From Sulfurimonas sp. (lineage in GTDB: Bacteria > Campylobacterota > Campylobacteria > Campylobacterales > Sulfurimonadaceae): DNA of 64,000 nt. Under the pieces are notes generated by a model, which saw nothing but the letters and a program-made list of their open reading frames with translations, did not search any database and had not been told where the DNA came from. Both the position numbers and the translations under genes were made by a program. The stretch covers positions 123,668-187,667 of the forward strand of contig JAOFSE010000002.1 of the NCBI GenBank assembly GCA_028044295.1, read 5' to 3'. Positions 44,233-62,500 of the stretch are shown one piece after another. Every line of letters begins with the position of its first letter. Position 1 is the stretch's first letter.

Positions 44233-44316
44233 GCATCTGTGGCGGAATGGTAGACGCGCGGGCTTGAGGGGCTCGTACTTAACGGTGTGGAAGTTCAAAT
44301 CTTCTCAGGTGCACCA
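44233..44316 (+). tRNA. tRNA-Leu (anticodon GAG)
   Basis: GCATCTG...CAGGTGC acceptor, D-arm gcggaatggtagacgc, anticodon arm cgggc-ttGAGgg-gctcg, variable arm, T-arm ggaag-ttcaaat-cttct, CCA encoded. Confidence 0.93.
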
Positions 44317-48262: not shown

Positions 48263-49432
48263 ATGTTCAGAAATATAATTATATCTCTACTATTATGCAC
48301 ATATTTGAGTGCAGAAAGTTTTGATGAATTTTTACAAAAGGCTATAAAAAATAGTCCTTATTTAGAGTCTTTGGCTTTATCTGTTAAGCAAACAAAAGAA
48401 GAGGGTGAGATTCTTACTAGATATAAAAACCCTACTTTAGAGTTAGAGTATTCCTCACTTAACCCAGATTTGGGTTCTAGTGATGATTCATATCGTGTTA
48501 ATCTTTCACAGCCTATTCGTTTATGGGGTGTTGGTGATGATAAAAGAGATGTTGTGAATAGTAGTATCAATACTGCAAATGCAAGTTACTCTCAAAAAAG
48601 AGCTATTTTCATTCGTGATATTTCACTTTTATACACAAACTATTCAAAGATGAAAATGCTACTTAAACTAGGTGATGAAGAATTGAATATTGCTAAAAAA
48701 ATATATGACATATCTATTGCAGAATTTGAAGAAGGCAGAATCTCAAAAGGATTAAAGCTTCACTCTTTAGTAGAATATGAAATAGCCAATAATTCAAAAG
48801 AAGCTTTGTCTTTAGATGAATTGGAGTCATATTTTTCACTATTGAAATTTGCAGGAATCAACGAAGAGATAGAGATTGAAGAGAATTATTTATTTAGCGT
48901 AAATGGTGATATTCAAAATATTAAAAACCCTAGTGTCGTTCTTTTAGAAAATCAACAAAATCAAGCACTATCTAAAGTGAAATTAAATTCTAATAGTCTG
49001 GAATGGATAAATTTATTTGCTGAGTTAGAAAATGAACCAGACCAAGATATATATAGAGTTGGTCTGGAGTTTCCCTTAGCGATATTCAATAATAAGTCTC
49101 AAGAAAAGACTATAGCTATGTTGAAAGCATCAAGTTCAGAGCTTTTAATTCAAAATGAGACAAATCGTTTAAATATGGATTTCTTAAGGCTTAAAAGAGA
49201 GAGAGCATCATTAACTAAACTGTATGAGAGTAATGAAAACATACTAAATATACAGCTTGAGCTTCTAAAAATGCACGAAGATAGCTATAAAATTTCACAT
49301 ACAAACTTGCTTCAACTACAAGAAGTTAACAATAAAGTTATTAAGACGAAAAAAAGTCTTATTCAAATACAAACAGCATTAGATAAAAATGCTATTTACA
49401 CTAATTATTCTAAAGGAAATTTCAATGAATAG
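48263..49432 (+). CDS. TolC/CzcC-like outer-membrane efflux protein
   Basis: Signal peptide; LALSVKQTKEEGEILTRYKNPTLELEYSSLNPD...YRVNLSQPI. Confidence 0.82.
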   Translation: MFRNIIISLLLCTYLSAESFDEFLQKAIKNSPYLESLALSVKQTKEEGEILTRYKNPTLELEYSSLNPDLGSSDDSYRVNLSQPIRLWGVGDDKRDVVNSSINTANASYSQKRAIFIRDISLLYTNYSKMKMLLKLGDEELNIAKKIYDISIAEFEEGRISKGLKLHSLVEYEIANNSKEALSLDELESYFSLLKFAGINEEIEIEENYLFSVNGDIQNIKNPSVVLLENQQNQALSKVKLNSNSLEWINLFAELENEPDQDIYRVGLEFPLAIFNNKSQEKTIAMLKASSSELLIQNETNRLNMDFLRLKRERASLTKLYESNENILNIQLELLKMHEDSYKISHTNLLQLQEVNNKVIKTKKSLIQIQTALDKNAIYTNYSKGNFNE

Positions 49433-50531
49433 AATATCTATATTTCTATTACTATCTATTACCTCATTATTTGGTATAAATGTACCAACTGAACACTCCA
49501 AGCTACATTCATTTGGAAAGTCAATAGAATTAAACTCTAAAATCATTCAGTTGTCGAATGCAAAGCAATCAGTAACCTCACTAGTTAATGGGCATCTGGA
49601 AAAATATTTTGTTGAGGCTGGTCAAAATGTAAAAGCTGGGCAAAAAATTGCTTTAATAGAATCAATATTAGTTTCTAAAATGACAGCAGATTATATCTCA
49701 TATAAAAAACAGTTTACAAGTTTAGAAGAAAATTATAGTGCCAACAAAAAACTTTATGAAAAAGGTATGCTATCTCTTCAAAAGTTAAACACTTTAAGTA
49801 ACGAACTAAATTCTATGCGTGCCAATGCTTCAGCTTTAGAATCACAATTAGGAACACTTGGTATTGATACTAATAATATAAAGGAAGCAACAGGTAATTT
49901 TATTCTTTACGCGCATAGTGCAGGACGAGTGTCAAGTCTTCTTCAACCATTGCATACAGTAATTAGAGAGGATGAAGCATTAATAACTATAATAAAAAAC
50001 CAAGCATTTTATGTAAAGTCTTATCTACCGTTAGAGTATTCTAATGTAGTAAAAGTTGGTCAAAAGCTTAGTGTGAATTACAATGGTAGAAAAATTGTAA
50101 CTCATGTAGCCCAAATACTACCAGAATTAGATGTGAAAACACAAAGAATAATTGTGCTGTCAAGTATTGATGAAAAAGCAGATGATTTGTTTATTAACAC
50201 ATTTGTTTCATCTACTCTTTATTTTGAGCCAACAAAAAAACAAGTGGCTGTCAAGAAGTCAGCATTGTCATTCTTCAATAATGAGTGGGTAGTCTTTATT
50301 CATAAGCTAGACCACGATGAAGAAAAACATGATGAACATGATGAAGAAGAACATGATGAAAATGAAGAGGAGACAGTTCCATACGAAGCTCGTGTTGTTG
50401 AAATTATTAATCATGACGATGATTACGTAGGAGTTCAAGGCTTAGAAGTAGGTGAAGAATATGTCAGTGACAAGAGCTATTATGTGAAGTCAATGATGTT
50501 AAAATCATCACTTGGCGAGCATGGGCATTAG
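49425..50531 (+). CDS. Efflux RND periplasmic adaptor (CzcB/CusB-like)
   Basis: VNGHLEKYFVEAGQNVKAGQKIALIES lipoyl-like motif; His/Glu-rich C-terminal segment; between OMF and RND genes. Confidence 0.85.
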   Translation: MNRISIFLLLSITSLFGINVPTEHSKLHSFGKSIELNSKIIQLSNAKQSVTSLVNGHLEKYFVEAGQNVKAGQKIALIESILVSKMTADYISYKKQFTSLEENYSANKKLYEKGMLSLQKLNTLSNELNSMRANASALESQLGTLGIDTNNIKEATGNFILYAHSAGRVSSLLQPLHTVIREDEALITIIKNQAFYVKSYLPLEYSNVVKVGQKLSVNYNGRKIVTHVAQILPELDVKTQRIIVLSSIDEKADDLFINTFVSSTLYFEPTKKQVAVKKSALSFFNNEWVVFIHKLDHDEEKHDEHDEEEHDENEEETVPYEARVVEIINHDDDYVGVQGLEVGEEYVSDKSYYVKSMMLKSSLGEHGH

Positions 50532-50541
50532 GTGATAAATT

Positions 50542-53500
50542 ATGTTAAATAAACTTATTGATTTATCACTAAAGTACAAGCTTTTAGTATTGACCTTTTT
50601 CATAGTAATTACTGTTTTTGGCTTTAAGGCTTATCAAGAGATACCTATAGACGCTTTTCCTGACATTACGCCTAAGCAAGTTGTCATTTATACAGAGAGT
50701 CCTGGTAACTCAGCTGAGGATATAGAAAAGTTACTCACATATCCAATAGAGTCAGCTTTATCAGGTATGGCTGGAGTGAAAATGATTATGTCAAATTCTT
50801 TCTTTGGTTTATCCTATGTTTCTGTATTTTTTGAAGATGATTTAGACATTTACTTTCTACGTCAACTAGTAAGTGAAAGACTAACTGGAATAAATATCCC
50901 GCAAGGCTGGGGGAAACCTGTATTAGGACCGAATACTACAGGTCTTGGACAAGTATTTTGGTATGAGATAAAAGATAGCACAGACAAATATTCACTTCGT
51001 GAGATTAGAGAGATGCAAGACTACATTGTGACTCCTTTATTTAAAAGTGTAAGTGGTATTGAAGAGGTAGTTGGATGGGGTGGACATGAAAAGCAATACA
51101 ATGTGCTCATAGATACTAAGAAACTTCAAAATATTGGTGTTACATATGGAGATGTTGTTAGTGCTTTACAAAAAAGCAATCGCTCCGCAGGTGGTCAATA
51201 CCTAGAGTTTAACCGTGAACAATATCTTATCCGTGGTGCAGGACTTTATAATAGTTTGGACGATATTCGTAACACTGTTGTTAAGTTTGAAGCAGGACAA
51301 TCTGTGACTATACAAGATGTTGCTACTGTTGAAGCAGGTTCAGCACCTAGGTTTGGAGCTGTAAGTATAGATGGTAATGAAGCAGTAATGGGAATGGTTC
51401 TACAAAGGACTGCGACAAATGCTGCTCAAGTTGTAGAATTAATCAAAGAAAAAATCGATACAGTAAACTCAGCACTTCCAAAAGGTGTTACTATTGAGAC
51501 TATTTACGATAGAACAGAGATAACTCATAAAGCGGTAAGTACAATGACAACTGCTCTTATATCTGGAGTTATTTTAGTTGCAATAGTTCTATTCTTATTC
51601 TTATTTGAACTTCGTTCTGCGTTTATAGTTATTGTATCTTTGCCACTTTCTCTTCTTATAGCATTTTTACTTATGGACTATTACAACTTAAGTGCGAATC
51701 TTATGAGTCTTAGTGGTCTTGCAATAGCAGTAGGAATGATTGTTGATGGAACCATAGTCGTTGTTGAAAATAGCTTTAGAAAGCTTCACGATGAACCAGA
51801 TGCACCTAGACTACAAGTTATATCAGATTCAGCCAAAGAGGTGGCAACACCTGTGACTTTTGCAGTCTTAATTATCGCAGCTGTTTTTATACCTCTTTTA
51901 TCTCTTGATGGATTAGCAGGTAAACTTTATAGTCCAATGGCATTGAATATTGTTTTTGTAATGCTTGGTTCATTACTAGTAGCGTTAGTGCTGGTTCCAG
52001 TTTTAACATTATTATTACTCAAGCCATCAAAGTCTAAAGAAAATCTAGTAATGAAAAGCATCAAAAAAGTTTACACTCCTTTATTGATATCAGCTCTTGC
52101 TAATGCCAAAAAATTTCTAATTGGAATATCTGTAATATTTGTTGTATTAGCTTTTGTATTAACTCAACAAGGTCGTGAGTTTATGCCTGAGCTTAATGAA
52201 GAATCAATTATGTATAGGGTTATATCTATTCCAGGAACAGGATTAGAACAATCAACTCAAACAGCAAGTAAAATTGAGAAGCATATTTTAAAGAACTATC
52301 CTAATGAAGTTACATCTGTTCTTTCAATGATAGGTCGAAGTGAGAAAGGTGAAACAGCTCAAGCAAATTATATGGAGATTCTTTTAACTTTAAAGGATGA
52401 TGTAGTAAATCTTGAGGACTTAACGGATAGTATGAATAAAGATTTAAAGCATACTTTTGAGTATGTTCAGTTTATACCTACTCAACCTATTGCTATGCGT
52501 ATTGAAGAGCTGCTTGAAGGTGTAAAAGCTGAACTTGCAGTTAAAATATATGGTGATGACCAAAAAGTATTAGACTCGATTGCCAAATCTATTCAAGCAA
52601 ATCTAAAAGGTATTGATGGTTTAGAGGAAATGGAAGTTGAAGTTCAACTAGGTCAAGCTCAGATAAAAATTGAACCAAATTATCTAGCACTTGCTCGTTA
52701 TGGGATTAGTGTTGAAGAAGTTATGAATGTAATTCGTAATGGAATTGGTGAAGAGGCTGTTTCTGAAAAGATTGAAGGTATTCGTCGTTTTGGAATTGTT
52801 CCTAAGATAAAAGGTGCAAAAAAAGATATTGAAGCGGTGAAAGCTGTAACAATACGTTCACGAAGTGGTGCTTTAGTAAGCTTAGAACAAATTTGTGACA
52901 TTAGTGTAAGTCATGGTTCATCTTTTATTAAACGTGAGAATCTGAGTAGATATATGGTTTTATCAATGGAAGTAGAAGATAGAGACGTTGCATCGTTTGT
53001 AGACGAAGCTAATCAGATTATTAAAGAACAAGTAAATATTCCAAATGGTTATTATATAGGATGGGCTGGCGACTTTAAAAATATGAAGGAAGCTACTGAG
53101 AGGTTAATGATTATTATTCCAATTACAATACTCTTAGTTATCTTACTTTTATACACAGCTTTCAACTCTCTTTCAAAAGCAATGCTAATTTTAATGAATG
53201 TTCCTTTTGGTTTTATTGGCGGTATTATCGCTCTTCTTATTAGTGGAATTTATCTTTCAGTCTCTGCTATTATAGGATTTTTAGCTATTTTTGCTATTGC
53301 AATTTTAAATGGGATTGTGCTTGTAAGTTTTATCGATGATTTAAGAATAAAGTATCCACATGTAAAATTAGAGACTTTACTTAAAGATGCAACACTTTTA
53401 AGACTTCGTCCAGTGCTTATGACAGCATTTACTACACTATTTGGTATTTTACCACTACTTTACGCTACAGGTGTAGGAAGTGAAATACAGTATCCATTAT

Positions 53501-53646
53501 CAGTTGTTATAACAGGTGGAATTATTAGTTCAACATTATTGACACTGTTGATACTTCCTTCAACTTATTTGTTATTTTACAAAAATGAGCATACACATGA
53601 AGATATTGTACTTCATGATGACAGAAAAAAGAGTGCCTTAGAATAG
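50542..53646 (+). CDS. Heavy-metal efflux RND transporter (CzcA/CusA family)
   Basis: PIDAFPDITPKQVVIYTESPG; YPIESALSGM; GLAIAVGMIVDGTIVVVEN; 1034 aa. Confidence 0.93.
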   Translation: MLNKLIDLSLKYKLLVLTFFIVITVFGFKAYQEIPIDAFPDITPKQVVIYTESPGNSAEDIEKLLTYPIESALSGMAGVKMIMSNSFFGLSYVSVFFEDDLDIYFLRQLVSERLTGINIPQGWGKPVLGPNTTGLGQVFWYEIKDSTDKYSLREIREMQDYIVTPLFKSVSGIEEVVGWGGHEKQYNVLIDTKKLQNIGVTYGDVVSALQKSNRSAGGQYLEFNREQYLIRGAGLYNSLDDIRNTVVKFEAGQSVTIQDVATVEAGSAPRFGAVSIDGNEAVMGMVLQRTATNAAQVVELIKEKIDTVNSALPKGVTIETIYDRTEITHKAVSTMTTALISGVILVAIVLFLFLFELRSAFIVIVSLPLSLLIAFLLMDYYNLSANLMSLSGLAIAVGMIVDGTIVVVENSFRKLHDEPDAPRLQVISDSAKEVATPVTFAVLIIAAVFIPLLSLDGLAGKLYSPMALNIVFVMLGSLLVALVLVPVLTLLLLKPSKSKENLVMKSIKKVYTPLLISALANAKKFLIGISVIFVVLAFVLTQQGREFMPELNEESIMYRVISIPGTGLEQSTQTASKIEKHILKNYPNEVTSVLSMIGRSEKGETAQANYMEILLTLKDDVVNLEDLTDSMNKDLKHTFEYVQFIPTQPIAMRIEELLEGVKAELAVKIYGDDQKVLDSIAKSIQANLKGIDGLEEMEVEVQLGQAQIKIEPNYLALARYGISVEEVMNVIRNGIGEEAVSEKIEGIRRFGIVPKIKGAKKDIEAVKAVTIRSRSGALVSLEQICDISVSHGSSFIKRENLSRYMVLSMEVEDRDVASFVDEANQIIKEQVNIPNGYYIGWAGDFKNMKEATERLMIIIPITILLVILLLYTAFNSLSKAMLILMNVPFGFIGGIIALLISGIYLSVSAIIGFLAIFAIAILNGIVLVSFIDDLRIKYPHVKLETLLKDATLLRLRPVLMTAFTTLFGILPLLYATGVGSEIQYPLSVVITGGIISSTLLTLLILPSTYLLFYKNEHTHEDIVLHDDRKKSALE

Positions 53647-53693
53647 GCTTTTAATGAAGTGCTATTAAGCACTTCACATAATAAAGGATTAAT

Positions 53694-54014
53694 ATGAAAA
53701 TTATAATTACATTATTAATGCCATTAGTAGTATTCGCTTCTTCGGAAACACTAAGTCCATCAGAGCACAACTCTATTCACGGTTATAATAATAGACCTGT
53801 AGTGAAAATGAATAAAAAATTGAACATGCATAAGTTACATAAGATTGATGAAGAACAAGCAAGAAAGATAGTTGAAGATGATACAAATGAAGAAGTGATT
53901 TCACTAAAGTTAACTCATAGTGGTAGATATATTATATATAAAGCTAGAACAAAAAATTATTTCTTAGTTATAAATGCATTAGACGGAACGATTGAGAATA
54001 AAGAGATAAAATAA
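53694..54014 (+). CDS. Small exported PepSY-like protein
   Basis: Signal peptide; KIDEEQARKIVEDDTNEEVISLKLTHSGRYIIYKARTKNYFLVINALDGTIENKEI. Confidence 0.6.
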   Translation: MKIIITLLMPLVVFASSETLSPSEHNSIHGYNNRPVVKMNKKLNMHKLHKIDEEQARKIVEDDTNEEVISLKLTHSGRYIIYKARTKNYFLVINALDGTIENKEIK

Positions 54015-54030
54015 TATAAAAAGGTAAGTA

Positions 54031-54921
54031 ATGTCTGTACATCATCATAAAGTAAATGCTAAAAACCTATTTATAGCAATTATTTTAAACATCATTATTA
54101 CAATTGCTCAGCTAATTGGTGGATTAATCTCAGGTTCGCTTGCATTACTTAGTGATGCAATTCATAATTTTAGTGATGTTATTTCCCTTATCACTGCTTA
54201 TGGTGCAAATAGGCTTGCAACAAGACCATCTGATATTGAAAAAACTTTTGGTTACCGTAGAGCAGAGATAATAGCTGCACTTTTTAATTCAGCTACTTTA
54301 ATCGCTATATCAATTTATATAATGATAGAAGCATTTAATAGACTTTATCACCCAGAGCCTATAGATTCTATTCTTGTAATTATTCTTGGAATTTTAGGAA
54401 TTATTGTAAATGGATTTAGTGTACTAATAGTTAAACATGATGCAAAAAAGAATATGAATATGAAAGCAGCCTATTTGCATTTGTTGGCTGATGTCATGAC
54501 ATCTGTTGCTGTAGTTTTAGGTGGTGTACTGATGCATTATTTCAATCTATTTTGGATTGACCCTATTATTTCAATTTTAATTGCTATTTATCTTCTTTGG
54601 GCATCTTTCGCATTACTAAAAAGTGCAATATTTGTATTAATGCATTTTACACCAGTGGACATAGATGTAAATGATGTAATTCAAACGATAACTGAGCAAG
54701 AGCAAATAGATAATATACATCATTTACATCTTTGGCAATTAGATGACAGTCGTATACATTTAGAAGCCCATTTGGATTTTAATGAAAATATTCAACTTCA
54801 AGAATCTACAGATGTTATAGACCTATTAGAAAAAAAGCTAAATAAAGAATTTGGGATTTCTCACATCACTTTTCAATGTGAATATAATAGATGTGACAAT
54901 AAAGAAATGATAAATAAATAA
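54031..54921 (+). CDS. Cation diffusion facilitator family transporter (CzcD-like)
   Basis: SGSLALLSDAIHNFSDVISLI; HLLADVMTSVAVVLGG; HHLHLWQLDD. Confidence 0.93.
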   Translation: MSVHHHKVNAKNLFIAIILNIIITIAQLIGGLISGSLALLSDAIHNFSDVISLITAYGANRLATRPSDIEKTFGYRRAEIIAALFNSATLIAISIYIMIEAFNRLYHPEPIDSILVIILGILGIIVNGFSVLIVKHDAKKNMNMKAAYLHLLADVMTSVAVVLGGVLMHYFNLFWIDPIISILIAIYLLWASFALLKSAIFVLMHFTPVDIDVNDVIQTITEQEQIDNIHHLHLWQLDDSRIHLEAHLDFNENIQLQESTDVIDLLEKKLNKEFGISHITFQCEYNRCDNKEMINK

Positions 54922-55325: not shown

Positions 55326-55856
55326 ATGAGAATATATATAACAGACTTAGAGGCATACAATAACGGACATTTAGTTGGTTCTTGGTATCAACTACCAATG
55401 AATGAGGATTTACTTGCAGAGAGTATAGAAAACGAACTACAAAGAGGAAGAGATATCTGTGGAGATAGTCATTTTCACGAAGAGATTTTTTTAAGTGATA
55501 GTGAGTGTTCGTATATGGAAATAGAAGAGTATTCCAACTTAACTAAACTAAATGAGATTGCTGAGTCTATGGAAAGTATAGATAAAGACGGAGTAAAAGC
55601 GATTACTTTTTTAATGGAGAATCACTTTGTAAAAGATATTTTTGAAGCAATAGAGAGTTATGAAGATAGTGTTAGAATATACGAAGATAGCACGATGGAA
55701 GATATAGCTTATGACTTAATCCAAGAGTGTTATGGTTTAGATGGTATTCCTGACATTATTGCCAATAATATAGACTATGAAAAAATAGGAAAAGATTTAG
55801 AGATAGAGGGTTCTTATTATAAAGTAGGTTCAGATACCTATGAGTATATAGGGTAA
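55326..55856 (+). CDS. ardA: ArdA-type antirestriction protein
   Basis: MRIYITDLEAYNNGHLVGSWYQLP (ArdA N-terminal signature), acidic protein. Confidence 0.87.
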   Translation: MRIYITDLEAYNNGHLVGSWYQLPMNEDLLAESIENELQRGRDICGDSHFHEEIFLSDSECSYMEIEEYSNLTKLNEIAESMESIDKDGVKAITFLMENHFVKDIFEAIESYEDSVRIYEDSTMEDIAYDLIQECYGLDGIPDIIANNIDYEKIGKDLEIEGSYYKVGSDTYEYIG

Positions 55857-56637: not shown

Positions 56638-57555
56638 TCATTTATTATTTAGTAAATTATCAAGTATTTTTTGTTCTTCTTCTTGAATAACTTCCTCCTT
56701 GGTTTGCTTTTTATTATTTTGATTTTTGACCGCTTGGGCAATCTCTTCGTCAGTCATGTTATCTCGATTTATTTCAATTTTAAAACTAATAAGTTTATAT
56801 TTTTTATCTACCTTGTAGGATACGAGAATATCTGTATATTTATTGATAGGTTCCAATGCTCTTTTAACTATTTTTTCTGCTTCAGATATATATTTTAAAG
56901 GTTTTTTATTTATTGTGTTTTTTATTTTTTTACTACTTGCTTTATCGTCTATTATTTTTGTTCTTGTGATGGGTAAAAAACCTTTGAATGTTTCTAAATC
57001 TATTTCATGCTTTTTATACTTTAAAAATTGTAATGATTTCAATCTTTGATATAAAACTATATGTACACCAGTTCGTAGCTTCTCTTGGTGCCTTGAATAT
57101 AGGTTTGTAAAGTTCTTTTTCTTCTTTTGAGTTATTAAATTAAATAGTTCAGAAGATAGAGATATTTCATAAATTTTCTCTTTTGCATTTTCTATACTGT
57201 TATCATACTCTTTATAAGAAAGTATATTTTGATTTGCAGTTTTAACTACTTTACCATCTCTATCAGTATAATTTTTTATCTTAATACTGACACATAACCC
57301 ATCCAAGGCTTCTTCGATAATTGAATGATAGCTTTTAACACTATCAGGTAGGTTCAAAAAACTCTTTAAATCTTGAAGAGAGTATTTAGTATTAAACCTT
57401 TCTTCTAATCCTAATTTACCTCTCTTATGAACTTCTACTTCCATCTCATGCCAGAACCTATCAATCAACTTTACAGAGTTGGCTTGCGTATCCGCTAAAA
57501 AAGTTTCTATAATTTCATTGGGTTTAAATATTTTAAAATCTTTGATTTTAGTCAT
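56638..57555 (-). CDS. Plasmid replication initiator (Rep_3/RepB-like)
   Basis: VKLIDRFWHEMEVEVHKRGKL...YEISLSSELFNLIT...NFTNLYSRHQEKLRTGVHIVLYQRLKSL winged-helix-like arrangement; iteron-like repeats upstream. Confidence 0.65.
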   Translation of the reverse strand: MTKIKDFKIFKPNEIIETFLADTQANSVKLIDRFWHEMEVEVHKRGKLGLEERFNTKYSLQDLKSFLNLPDSVKSYHSIIEEALDGLCVSIKIKNYTDRDGKVVKTANQNILSYKEYDNSIENAKEKIYEISLSSELFNLITQKKKKNFTNLYSRHQEKLRTGVHIVLYQRLKSLQFLKYKKHEIDLETFKGFLPITRTKIIDDKASSKKIKNTINKKPLKYISEAEKIVKRALEPINKYTDILVSYKVDKKYKLISFKIEINRDNMTDEEIAQAVKNQNNKKQTKEEVIQEEEQKILDNLLNNK

Positions 57556-58671: not shown

Positions 58672-59664
58672 TTAATCTTTTGTAGGAGCTGGATATAGGG
58701 TAGATTGAGATTTTCGTTTTAATTCTAGGGACTTTTTCAGTTCTTCGAATTTAGACAATTTTTCTTTATGTTCTTCGCTTACCAAGCTCTCTAATTTATT
58801 ATAGGACTTCTCTACAAGTAGTTGGTTCTTGTTGAACTTTTCAGTATCATCTTCTTCAAGTGCAGTAGCCATACGGTTTAAATAGTTGTCAATCCTCTTT
58901 TTGAGTTTTTGAGAATACTCTTGTAGGAACTCCATCTCTTTAAAAAGTTGTTGGAGTTGTTTCATTTCTTGGAGTGAATCATCAATTACTTCATTGAGTT
59001 TATTAATTGTATGAGGGAGTTTATTTTTTCGATTACGAGCTTTTCGTTGAGACTTAATTTGGTAGTCTAAATAATTTTGACCATAGTTCAAAAGCACTTT
59101 ATTCGTCATATTTTTTAAAAATTGACTATACATTTTTTTACCTAAGTCAACTCTCTTCAACTTTTTATCATTGTTTAAATCTAAAAATACATTTCCTATC
59201 ACAAAGTTTAAATGGTCATTTCTAGTTTTGTCTTGTCTATGTAGTGAAGATAAAATAAAATTTCTTTGAATATATTTTATTTGCTCATCTGTATACTTTA
59301 AATCATTATTTACTGATATAAAGTTTATGAGTTCATAAATCAACTTATTACTAATTTGTTTATATTCACTATCAGTTAGTTTGATTTCCGGAGGAAATGA
59401 AACTAACAGGTTCTTACCATAAGAAGCTGTTCTTCCTCCTTTACGAGCCAATTTTACTTCTATATCTTTACTCTGTTGTATCTGTAAAATATTTTTTAGT
59501 ACCTTGTGAGAGTTCTTAATACCATCGTAAGCTACTATCTCATGTCCATCTTTTTTGTGATTGTCGTGGTTGTCGTCAAAAATGTAATCAACACTATTGA
59601 TTAAACCAGTTGCTCCACCCTTGATTGTATCAAATGATACAAACCAATTCTTCAATTTTTTCAT
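58672..59664 (-). CDS. Putative relaxase/mobilisation protein
   Basis: LHRQDKTRNDHLNFVIGNVF resembles a relaxase His motif; basic protein with C-terminal coiled coil; plasmid-like context. Confidence 0.5.
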   Translation of the reverse strand: MKKLKNWFVSFDTIKGGATGLINSVDYIFDDNHDNHKKDGHEIVAYDGIKNSHKVLKNILQIQQSKDIEVKLARKGGRTASYGKNLLVSFPPEIKLTDSEYKQISNKLIYELINFISVNNDLKYTDEQIKYIQRNFILSSLHRQDKTRNDHLNFVIGNVFLDLNNDKKLKRVDLGKKMYSQFLKNMTNKVLLNYGQNYLDYQIKSQRKARNRKNKLPHTINKLNEVIDDSLQEMKQLQQLFKEMEFLQEYSQKLKKRIDNYLNRMATALEEDDTEKFNKNQLLVEKSYNKLESLVSEEHKEKLSKFEELKKSLELKRKSQSTLYPAPTKD

Positions 59665-59909: not shown

Positions 59910-60830
59910 TTATTTATATAATTCATCAACTAAATAACTTATATATGCAAAATCTTTTATAAGTTTAGTTTCCTTATTTCTTAAATATGTATTATCAATT
60001 AAGTCACTTATAGAGATTATCTTTGTACGATCGCTTTGATAATGCCCTAGATCATAACAAATATCCCTTTCTAAATTAGAAAACCTTTCTTTTACATAGT
60101 CTTGATAGTTATTTCTAAATACAACCATATCTTTATCTTGAATATATATTTCTTCATCTCTATAGTTTACTTTATGAATCGTATTCTTCGAAATATTAAC
60201 AAAAAATCTATAATCAAATTCTTTTATTTTTTTTCTAAAGTCATTGTTGTTAAATACTTTTTCTATATACCTATTATTAAAAAATTTATCTAAAAAATAT
60301 TCTCCAGAGTCCATGCTTGATTGAAACTCATAAGAGTTTCTTAAATATGTTAAATAAAAATTTCCATCATCATTTGGATCAAATATATTTTGTTTAAATC
60401 TAAAACCTGCTTCTTGGAACCTATCTCTCATTTCACTAGTGTAGTTAAAGTCTCGGTCACTATCTTGCCTGTCAAGTCTATTTAATACAAGAATAGTAGG
60501 TACATTTCTATTTGTTGTGTATTCAATGTATTTTAATGTGCTAATGGTTTTCATAATACTTTCATATCCAAATTCAAAAGGAACGATTATAAGTTTAGCT
60601 TGTTTTATGAATTTTTTTGAATATGCAGTTTCTATATTCGCACCTATATCAACAATGCCATTTTTCATATTTGGTGTTATCTTCTTAACTTCAGGGTATA
60701 AAAGACTATGCTCTTCATCTATCATATAGTTATCTTTATTAACATATATATTCAGATTAAATAACCTACCTAAATTGTAAGTTAATAATGAACACCCTAC
60801 ACCATGTTTTTTATTCATAACTAATATCAT
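59910..60830 (-). CDS. ParA/MinD-like P-loop protein with degenerate Walker A and C-terminal extension
   Basis: MNKKHGVGCSLLTYNLGRLF; NGIVDIGANIE; AKLIIVPFEFG; PTILVLNRLD. Confidence 0.65.
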   Translation of the reverse strand: MILVMNKKHGVGCSLLTYNLGRLFNLNIYVNKDNYMIDEEHSLLYPEVKKITPNMKNGIVDIGANIETAYSKKFIKQAKLIIVPFEFGYESIMKTISTLKYIEYTTNRNVPTILVLNRLDRQDSDRDFNYTSEMRDRFQEAGFRFKQNIFDPNDDGNFYLTYLRNSYEFQSSMDSGEYFLDKFFNNRYIEKVFNNNDFRKKIKEFDYRFFVNISKNTIHKVNYRDEEIYIQDKDMVVFRNNYQDYVKERFSNLERDICYDLGHYQSDRTKIISISDLIDNTYLRNKETKLIKDFAYISYLVDELYK

Positions 60831-60991: not shown

Positions 60992-62500
60992 ATGATAGTT
61001 AAACCAAACAGTAAATATAATCAAAACCAAAGTCATACGAAAGGTAATATAAGTAAATTTAAAAAAGTATCTAACCTATTATCATTAGAGAATATCAACA
61101 ATGAAAGTAAATCACTAATCAATATGATAAGTGAAAAAATTCTTGATATTAATTTTGGTAACGACAAGTTATCAAAAAAATTCAATGGACTACTTAATAG
61201 TATTGTTAAAACAGATAAATCACTTGTAGATTTTGAGATATCACTACTATTTAAAGTTTTTACACTAATTGTAGAAAAGAGTAGTGATTTTGTTAATGTA
61301 CATAAATCTTGTTTTCCAATGAAAAACAAAAAAAGTATAGTGATTCACTATATTCAAAACCTTATCACTTCTGAAAACGACTTCAATAAGAACGAACTAC
61401 AAAATTTTGTAAATCGTCTTCAAAACTCTAACCATATGATAAATTATTACTATTTGAATATGACTCAAAGAAATATGACCAATATTGAATTAGTAAAATC
61501 TATGAGAAATCTACTGACAGACAATCAACAAGTCAATTCAACTTCTTTATTTAACTTGTCTGGTGGAAAGGGTCAATTTATTGGTTCTGTACAAAATGTT
61601 ATACACCAATATATCAATTTAGAAAAAGTCAATAGGTTGATTATTCCCTTTGGTGGGAGTGGAATGGACTTTATGAATGTCACTCCACTCATAGAACCAG
61701 GAACTGAAGTCATATTGAACTCTATCAACAAGACAAATTCTCAACTTTTTAAAGATATCAAAGAAAATCGACAGAAGTTAATAGAAGGGGTTTTAGGTCT
61801 TGAAGTTGAATTCACAACCTATTCTCGTGAGTGTTCAGGTAAGAAAGTATTACTGGAGGTGTATCAAGATTTTTTTGAACAGAAATTAAAAGAACTAAAT
61901 CAACTCGAGAGTTATGGTTTCTATGGGATAGGGACAAGTGTCTTATTCATATTCCTATCCAATAAAACATATGGTGGAAACATAGAATGGACTGATGGTA
62001 TTACATATATTCCAACTGGTAAGTGTAAGAGTAAATATGAGAAATCAGTAGTCTCAAAGATTGAATACTTTGGATATTGGTTAGACCAGTTCAATGTAGT
62101 TGTAGAGTGTGAGGACTATACAACAATTTTAGATAAATATGACAATGAATCTTCATTGACAATATCAGACCCATTATATGTAAAAGAGAATGAGAGTGAA
62201 TTACTTCAAACTCGTGTTACTTATGGAGAAGATAACTTTCCACACCGTCAATGTATTGACTACACAATGGGACTCAAAGGACAATTTATCTATCACAACT
62301 ACAACAACTCAAAATTGATTGAATTGTTCTCAGAGAGAAGTGATATAGGTTTTGTTCAACACAAGAAATCTATCCAAAACACAGAGTCAGTAAATGGTAA
62401 AAAACCAAAATGTGTTGAACTTATCTTCTTCACAAAAGAAGTTGATAGTCAAAGTTTAAATAACAATGACTATCAACCACAACTTCAATTAGTTTCATAA
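60992..62500 (+). CDS. D12-class (Dam-like) DNA N6-adenine methyltransferase homologue, divergent
   Basis: NLSGGKGQFIGSVQNVI; IPFGGSGMDFMN; NSINKTNSQLFKDIKENRQKLI; SDPLYVKEN; YTMGLKGQFIYHNYNNSKLIELF; about 180 aa extra N-terminus. Confidence 0.7.
   Translation: MIVKPNSKYNQNQSHTKGNISKFKKVSNLLSLENINNESKSLINMISEKILDINFGNDKLSKKFNGLLNSIVKTDKSLVDFEISLLFKVFTLIVEKSSDFVNVHKSCFPMKNKKSIVIHYIQNLITSENDFNKNELQNFVNRLQNSNHMINYYYLNMTQRNMTNIELVKSMRNLLTDNQQVNSTSLFNLSGGKGQFIGSVQNVIHQYINLEKVNRLIIPFGGSGMDFMNVTPLIEPGTEVILNSINKTNSQLFKDIKENRQKLIEGVLGLEVEFTTYSRECSGKKVLLEVYQDFFEQKLKELNQLESYGFYGIGTSVLFIFLSNKTYGGNIEWTDGITYIPTGKCKSKYEKSVVSKIEYFGYWLDQFNVVVECEDYTTILDKYDNESSLTISDPLYVKENESELLQTRVTYGEDNFPHRQCIDYTMGLKGQFIYHNYNNSKLIELFSERSDIGFVQHKKSIQNTESVNGKKPKCVELIFFTKEVDSQSLNNNDYQPQLQLVS

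Follow-up and report, generated by a model that had tools for sequence, protein, structure and literature searches.

What does a D12-class adenine methyltransferase (MTase) gene do when its catalytic tetrapeptide reads DPLY in place of DPPY? We addressed this for one gene of a Sulfurimonas-like host genome, lying in a window of 64 kb (the whole stretch of DNA that was analysed). Inspection of the sequence confirmed the ORF as real, with an ATG start and a product of 502 aa, and SGGKGQF (residues 190–196), PFGGSG and DPLY are all present as the first-pass annotation had described. That annotation overlooked a second motif change, NSIN for NDxN, as well as the mobile-element setting of the gene and a C-terminal tail resembling a tmRNA tag. 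It also described the gene as having no restriction gene beside it. Within reach this stands, as neither the window nor the surroundings of the two closest homologues contained a restriction gene, but the 188-kb contig stops where the window does, 1.5 kb past the end of the D12-like gene. Coordinates are collected in the table.

Table. Features of the element and of the D12-like gene, in positions of the window.
Feature	Position	Strand	Evidence
tRNA-Leu(gag), inferred site of attachment at the element's left end	44233..44316	+	G318 and G488 have this tRNA to the left of their elements
ArdA antirestriction protein	55326..55856	+	Pfam ArdA, E 1e-28
Rep3-type replication initiator (weak)	56638..57555	-	Rep3_C, E 0.03; PHROG_2172 (function unassigned), E 1.3e-4
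Putative relaxase, His...HLNxxI pattern	58672..59664	-	homologues in G318 and G416
Divergent ParA-like gene, degenerate P-loop KKHGVGCSLL	59910..60830	-	sequence inspection; G318 and G367 each have a homologue
D12-like methyltransferase family protein, 502 aa	60992..62500	+	hhalign, PHROG_1996, PADLOC MTase_II, relatives' Pfam MethyltransfD12 matches
N-terminal four-helix bundle, residues 13–97	61028..61282	+	AlphaFold2 on residues 1–185
MTase domain, residues 184–479	61541..62428	+	profile-profile alignment to canonical D12
Motif X G-G-K, residues 191–193	61562..61570	+	family alignment
Motif I PFGGSG, residues 219–224	61646..61663	+	family alignment
Motif II NSIN, residues 243–246	61718..61729	+	family alignment
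Motif IV DPLY, residues 393–396	62168..62179	+	ORF translation, family alignment
tmRNA-tag-like tail NNNDYQPQLQLVS, residues 490–502	62459..62497	+	host tag ANNTNYRPAYAVA; anchored score 31

The proposal that the protein belongs to the D12 family was borne out, by a less direct route than the HMM search that had been suggested. Searches of Pfam, NCBIfam and PDB sequences with the 502-aa protein alone gave no match, and it matched PHROG_1996 (DNA methyltransferase; E 1.8e-4) and the PADLOC type II MTase model MTase_II (E 1.6e-5) weakly. By contrast, a profile made from this protein and its homologues in G318 and at L010 (hereafter the DPLY trio) aligned by hhalign with five canonical D12 proteins across the whole MTase domain at 97% probability and E 8.2e-11, placing DPLY on DPPY (CDPPYV) and NSIN on NDIN; the 502-aa protein is therefore a D12 homologue. 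Relatives of the protein match Pfam MethyltransfD12 (PF02086) directly, at E 7e-12 and 1.6e-16. These alignments show a divergent homologue of the D12 class (Dam superfamily), whose fold is shown by homology; AlphaFold2, run on the whole protein with two sequences, gave a mean pLDDT of 36 and no usable MTase model. With the D12-class N6-adenine DNA MTases (PF02086; EcoDam, T4Dam, DpnM) the protein shares the motif order X, I, II, IV and C-terminal segment, along with GxK, FxGxG, the Asp and Tyr of motif IV and a later Tyr. It differs from them in DPLY for DPPY, in NSIN for NDxN, in an added helical N-terminal domain of ~183 residues, in its tag-like tail and in lying below Pfam detection.

The closest named homologue lies in a Sulfurimonas metagenome-assembled genome, and the family members compared here were drawn from one order plus the host's own genus and family. 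The family occurs on mobile elements integrated in Campylobacterota. Phage records held no match, plasmid records held only weak D12 matches, and the viral contigs scanned contained no relative, one of these scans being without any pattern match.

In G318 and at L010 (genome G488) the genes after the D12-like gene are small ones, an excisionase-like ORF of 85–90 aa and a tyrosine integrase, with a complete tRNA-Leu(gag) to the left of the element and a 3′-half tRNA fragment starting TTGAGG to the right of the integrase, giving elements of about 21.6 kb and 23 kb, respectively. The acceptor end of the right-hand fragment differs, and a different tRNA was considered as its source and rejected, as no other copy exists. 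Because the L010 fragment shares TTGAGGTGGTAGCGC with the left tRNA-Leu(gag), and no other copy was found, we accepted this tRNA as the site. The window shows only the tRNA, a putative relaxase for which Pfam gave no match, and the shared genes, because the contig ends. The D12-like gene is probably carried by an integrative element in tRNA-Leu(GAG), and this element is predicted to be mobilisable. The gene at the place corresponding to the weak Rep3-type initiator is a Rep3 gene in G318 (E 2e-18), the L010 element has a Mob_Pre relaxase, and elements of other relatives carry MobA/VirD2-type relaxase, Rep3, ParB-like and integrase genes. The ParA-like gene, which also lacks a Pfam match, is transcribed divergently from the D12-like gene in both the window and G318.

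Other gene content varies between these elements. Positions 48263–54921 of the window hold outer-membrane, membrane-fusion and RND efflux (AcrB/CusA-type, ACR_tran) genes with a cation diffusion facilitator, probably a metal-efflux set carried as cargo, and at this place the G318 element has a BREX-like operon (BrxL, BrxC/PglY, BrxP; L011:1468-10541). In G416 the gene immediately upstream of the D12-like gene is of the ParB_N type, with a homologous arrangement in G409 (L057:6855-7826, L058:10480-11478). A related D12-like protein with DPPY and an N-terminus of ~200 residues occurs at L014, L015 and L056 on another integrated element, located at a tRNA-Gly/Leu/Cys/Ser cluster and encoding a G2P-like replication protein and an FtsK-like one; the L056 copy is interrupted.

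The D12-like gene is under purifying selection. Across the whole gene dN/dS was 0.11 against G318, the other two pairs of the DPLY trio giving 0.21 and 0.25, and ArdA of the same elements gave 0.13 to 0.14; these are simple Nei-Gojobori estimates at high synonymous divergence. A decaying pseudogene was rejected on these values. The long N-terminal extension that had been noted, ~180 residues, is present and conserved in the close homologues, and at a dN/dS of 0.11 against G318 it is constrained to the same degree as the MTase domain. AlphaFold2 modelled residues 1–185 as a helical fold at an overall pLDDT of 63, with about 80–89 over most helices of the four-helix bundle, and comparison with PDB folds found no match at E <= 0.001 (best E 0.9). 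The N-terminus is thus a predicted helical domain without known relative.

Having placed the gene, we compared motif IV across the family. The G318 homologue (83% identity) and the L010 homologue (61%), the two closest, both read DPLY, as does the distant G561 relative, so a strain mutation of DPPY was rejected. DPPY occurs only in relatives of ~35% identity or less to the window protein, the nearest being G396 at 35%, beside which the four DPLY proteins group in the tree with moderate support (82/77). Across the 15 family members compared, whose median identity in the MTase domain is ~23%, motif IV reads DPPY, DPLY, DPEY, DPVY, DTVY or DVPY, and position 395 is Pro in seven, Leu in four, Val in two and Glu in two. 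The [DN]PP[YFW] pattern fails in the window, G318, L010 and G561 proteins, which keep its Asp and Tyr. Only 14 positions are invariant in all 15, namely Met1, G191, K193, F220, G222, N246, G329, D393, Y396, Y411, H418, Y434, N436 and E476. The motif X Lys (K193), the catalytic Asp (D393) and its Tyr (Y396) are therefore unchanged throughout, as are F220 and G222 of FxGxG. Motif II behaves differently: position 244 is Asp in canonical D12 proteins and Asp or Glu in all other family members, but Ser (S244, in NSIN) in the DPLY trio only. The L010 protein additionally has GCK where GGK is expected in motif X.

For T4Dam and M.TaqI, the proton acceptor is the motif IV Asp or Asn, positioned by a motif X residue (K11 of T4Dam); the first Pro contributes a carbonyl, and stacking on the base is done by the Tyr (PMC3814359). 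The catalytic groups of T4Dam, M.TaqI and RlmJ comprise Asp, its partner Lys, the carbonyl of the first Pro and Tyr, and E118, the acidic residue of motif II in RlmJ, holds the SAM ribose (PMC3814359). The D12-like family keeps the Asp, Lys and Tyr set of T4Dam and M.TaqI, and the DPLY trio loses the acid of motif II. Invariance of Asp, Tyr and Lys leans toward a working base-binding pocket, whereas loss of the motif II Asp leans against a working enzyme, and S244 with a broken DPPY and, at L010, GCK could mean that catalysis was lost.

Read together, these changes raise the possibility of a D12 fold that has died as an enzyme: the DPLY clade would have lost methyl transfer and would serve as a DNA-binding regulator of replication, of excision or of the divergent ParA-like promoter, with its level set by proteolysis through the C-terminal tail. 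The two motif changes occur together in the three closest members, the family holds at least five non-DPPY variants, and the N-terminal domain is under strong selection as well; the divergent ParA-like gene and, in G416 and G409, the upstream ParB_N-type gene would also suit a regulator. Against this, the catalytic Asp and Tyr and the motif X Lys never vary, and half of the family keeps DPPY. Well-known dead MTases lose catalytic residues, as in the EPPL of METTL14. We regard a dead fold as a distinct possibility that falls short of probable. A related proposal, that the family mimics the tmRNA tag so as to be timed by the host's trans-translation proteolysis and that the DPLY branch is a non-methylating DNA-binding switch or ClpXP adaptor, appears rather unlikely to us.

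METTL14 and plant MTB are non-catalytic partners of a catalytic MTase paralogue. They resemble the 502-aa protein in joining an MTase fold to an altered motif IV under selection (PMC13408939); in contrast, no paralogue of the D12-like protein was found in its host genome. The three functions offered by the first-pass annotation, a DNA-binding regulator, an altered-specificity enzyme and a non-DNA MTase, are all candidates on the sequence. Since Lys, Asp and Tyr never vary, we place a working enzyme somewhat ahead of a binding-only protein for the DPLY branch. On the explanation favored below, the second Pro of DPPY would not be essential to the D12-like family, and DPLY and the other variants would persist for that reason. 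The occurrence of DPPY, DPLY, DPEY, DPVY, DTVY and DVPY in one family offers a natural series for testing what adenine methylation needs of motif IV.

We then turned to the C-terminus, where NNNDYQPQLQLVS of the window protein resembles ANNTNYRPAYAVA, the host's own tmRNA tag. Family proteins end in NNNDYQPLQLVS (G318), NNNTYQPLQLVS (L010), NNTEFRPFLVLKSA (G561), ANEATYQPLHLVA (G367), LNTTNYLPIKIAS (G165), INNTTYISKIEKVA (G345) and NQPDYAPKKAA (G416), and in G253, whose own tmRNA tag is ANNTNYAPAYAKVA, in NNTDYSPSQLVA. When aligned from the C-terminus, nine of the 15 family tails scored 26–38 and the window tail 31, whereas none of 237 other proteins encoded at these loci (element neighbourhoods) scored above 16; tails shuffled 300 times reached 17 at the 99th percentile and 25 at most. 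Grouped by eye from the tree into 12 lineages, the family exceeds background in seven, compared with none of the 237 (Fisher P 7e-11), and likeness to the full tag is weak in the other five (G396, G325/G078, G409, G176, G008). An ending in [VASC][AS] is common to all 15 family tails but found in only 9 of the 237, and several of those nine also belong to these elements, as methyltransferases, an integrase or an excisionase-like protein.

As a separate approach, the DNA pattern for NNxxYxPxxx[VA][AS]-stop was searched in 135 Sulfurimonas and 399 order-level genomes. Matches came nearly always one per genome and were taken as tmRNA genes, an assignment that rests on the tag-like sequence, with a tmRNA model run on part of the genomes. 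Beyond these, the pattern found three family members (G318, G488 and G253) and one match in G484 at which no ORF ends, while the reversed control pattern gave zero matches in the same genomes; the window tail has one extra residue, so it was caught by the alignment and not by the fixed-spacing pattern. A second protein family was a candidate from tag-like matches in some Arcobacter-type genomes (NNTNYAPQRVAA) and was rejected: no ORF ends there, and they were therefore read as tmRNA genes. We conclude from these comparisons that the C-terminus of the D12-like protein imitates the host's tmRNA degradation tag. The likeness might instead be a chance product of AT-rich C-termini rich in Asn, Tyr and Lys, on an otherwise ordinary divergent orphan MTase; the weak full-tag match in five of 12 lineages, in genomes that are all AT-rich, would fit this, but with background and shuffled tails so far below the nine members, and with a pattern that was specific over about 500 genomes, we consider it improbable.

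Degron-like ends also occur on other genes of these elements (L057:845-1774, L055:1278-2492, L061:10635-11849, L058:7599-8732, L058:8828-9214), where two C5-methyltransferase-like proteins, an N6_Mtase, an integrase and an excisionase-like protein end in ELVAA, YIEAA, NEAS, KLVA or SLVS. Ends of this kind may be a more general trait of the elements.

The explanation that we favor, at about an even chance, is that the gene encodes an orphan D12 homologue of an integrative mobilisable element, short-lived by virtue of its tag-like tail and acting briefly on the element's DNA. ClpXP, or another protease that recognises the tag, would degrade the protein directly, so that it would act only in a burst, most probably as the element enters a new cell or at the start of excision and replication. 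During this time its role would be to bind adenines of the element DNA and probably to methylate them, alongside ArdA; its removal afterwards would spare the host chromosome from modification. Both degron and timing are inferred here. The host encodes ClpX, but SspB was not found in its genome, which we count against this explanation, given that the NN..Y.P half of the tag is kept. Seven lineages keep NN..Y.P...[VA][AS], and the family therefore points to the residues that count in the Campylobacterota tag where SspB is not found. If the explanation is right, a quality-control tag of the host is put to use by the element to shorten the life of a DNA-modifying protein, a simple way for orphan MTases to act at establishment and leave the host genome unmarked. 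That the tail is instead a docking or decoy signal, occupying ClpX or drawing ClpXP to a partner that the protein binds, for example a restriction complex, and so helping the element to establish, seems very improbable. In its favor, the mimicry spans the whole tag, beyond its last two residues, the presence of ArdA means that restriction is something the element copes with, and EcoKI restriction complexes are proteolysed through ClpXP in restriction alleviation (PMC11109961). Against it, a plain degron is the simpler account.

Parts of a short-lived orphan MTase on a mobile element have precedent. M.EcoGIX is a plasmid orphan m6A MTase that acts briefly at conjugal entry beside ArdA, and it and M.BceJIII, both single-strand-specific, resemble the 502-aa protein in being orphans that a transferable element encodes next to ArdA and replication genes, with short action on entry proposed for them as it is here (PMC7736820). 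They differ in having DPPY and no reported degradation-tag-like tail, and we liken them by setting (PMC7736820). Genomically encoded ssrA-like tags on mobile elements are already known: in integration-dependent immunity phages (mycobacteriophages, Bifidobacterium prophages) the repressor carries an ssrA-like tag that promotes its degradation and is removed on integration (PMC9934374, PMC6109161). In those phages attP lies within the repressor gene, whereas the 502-aa protein is MTase-like, the attachment sites lie at tRNA-Leu(gag) and beyond the integrase, and the tail is intact in integrated copies. As the integrated copy keeps its tail, the tail is a constant property of the protein.

The tag searches also brought up paired sequences in two genomes. 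G396 has two tmRNA genes with the same tag ~140 bp apart (C4:1999076-1999936; L074, L078), and G230 has two tag sequences 25 kb apart (L127, L128), possibly left by elements that integrated at ssrA.
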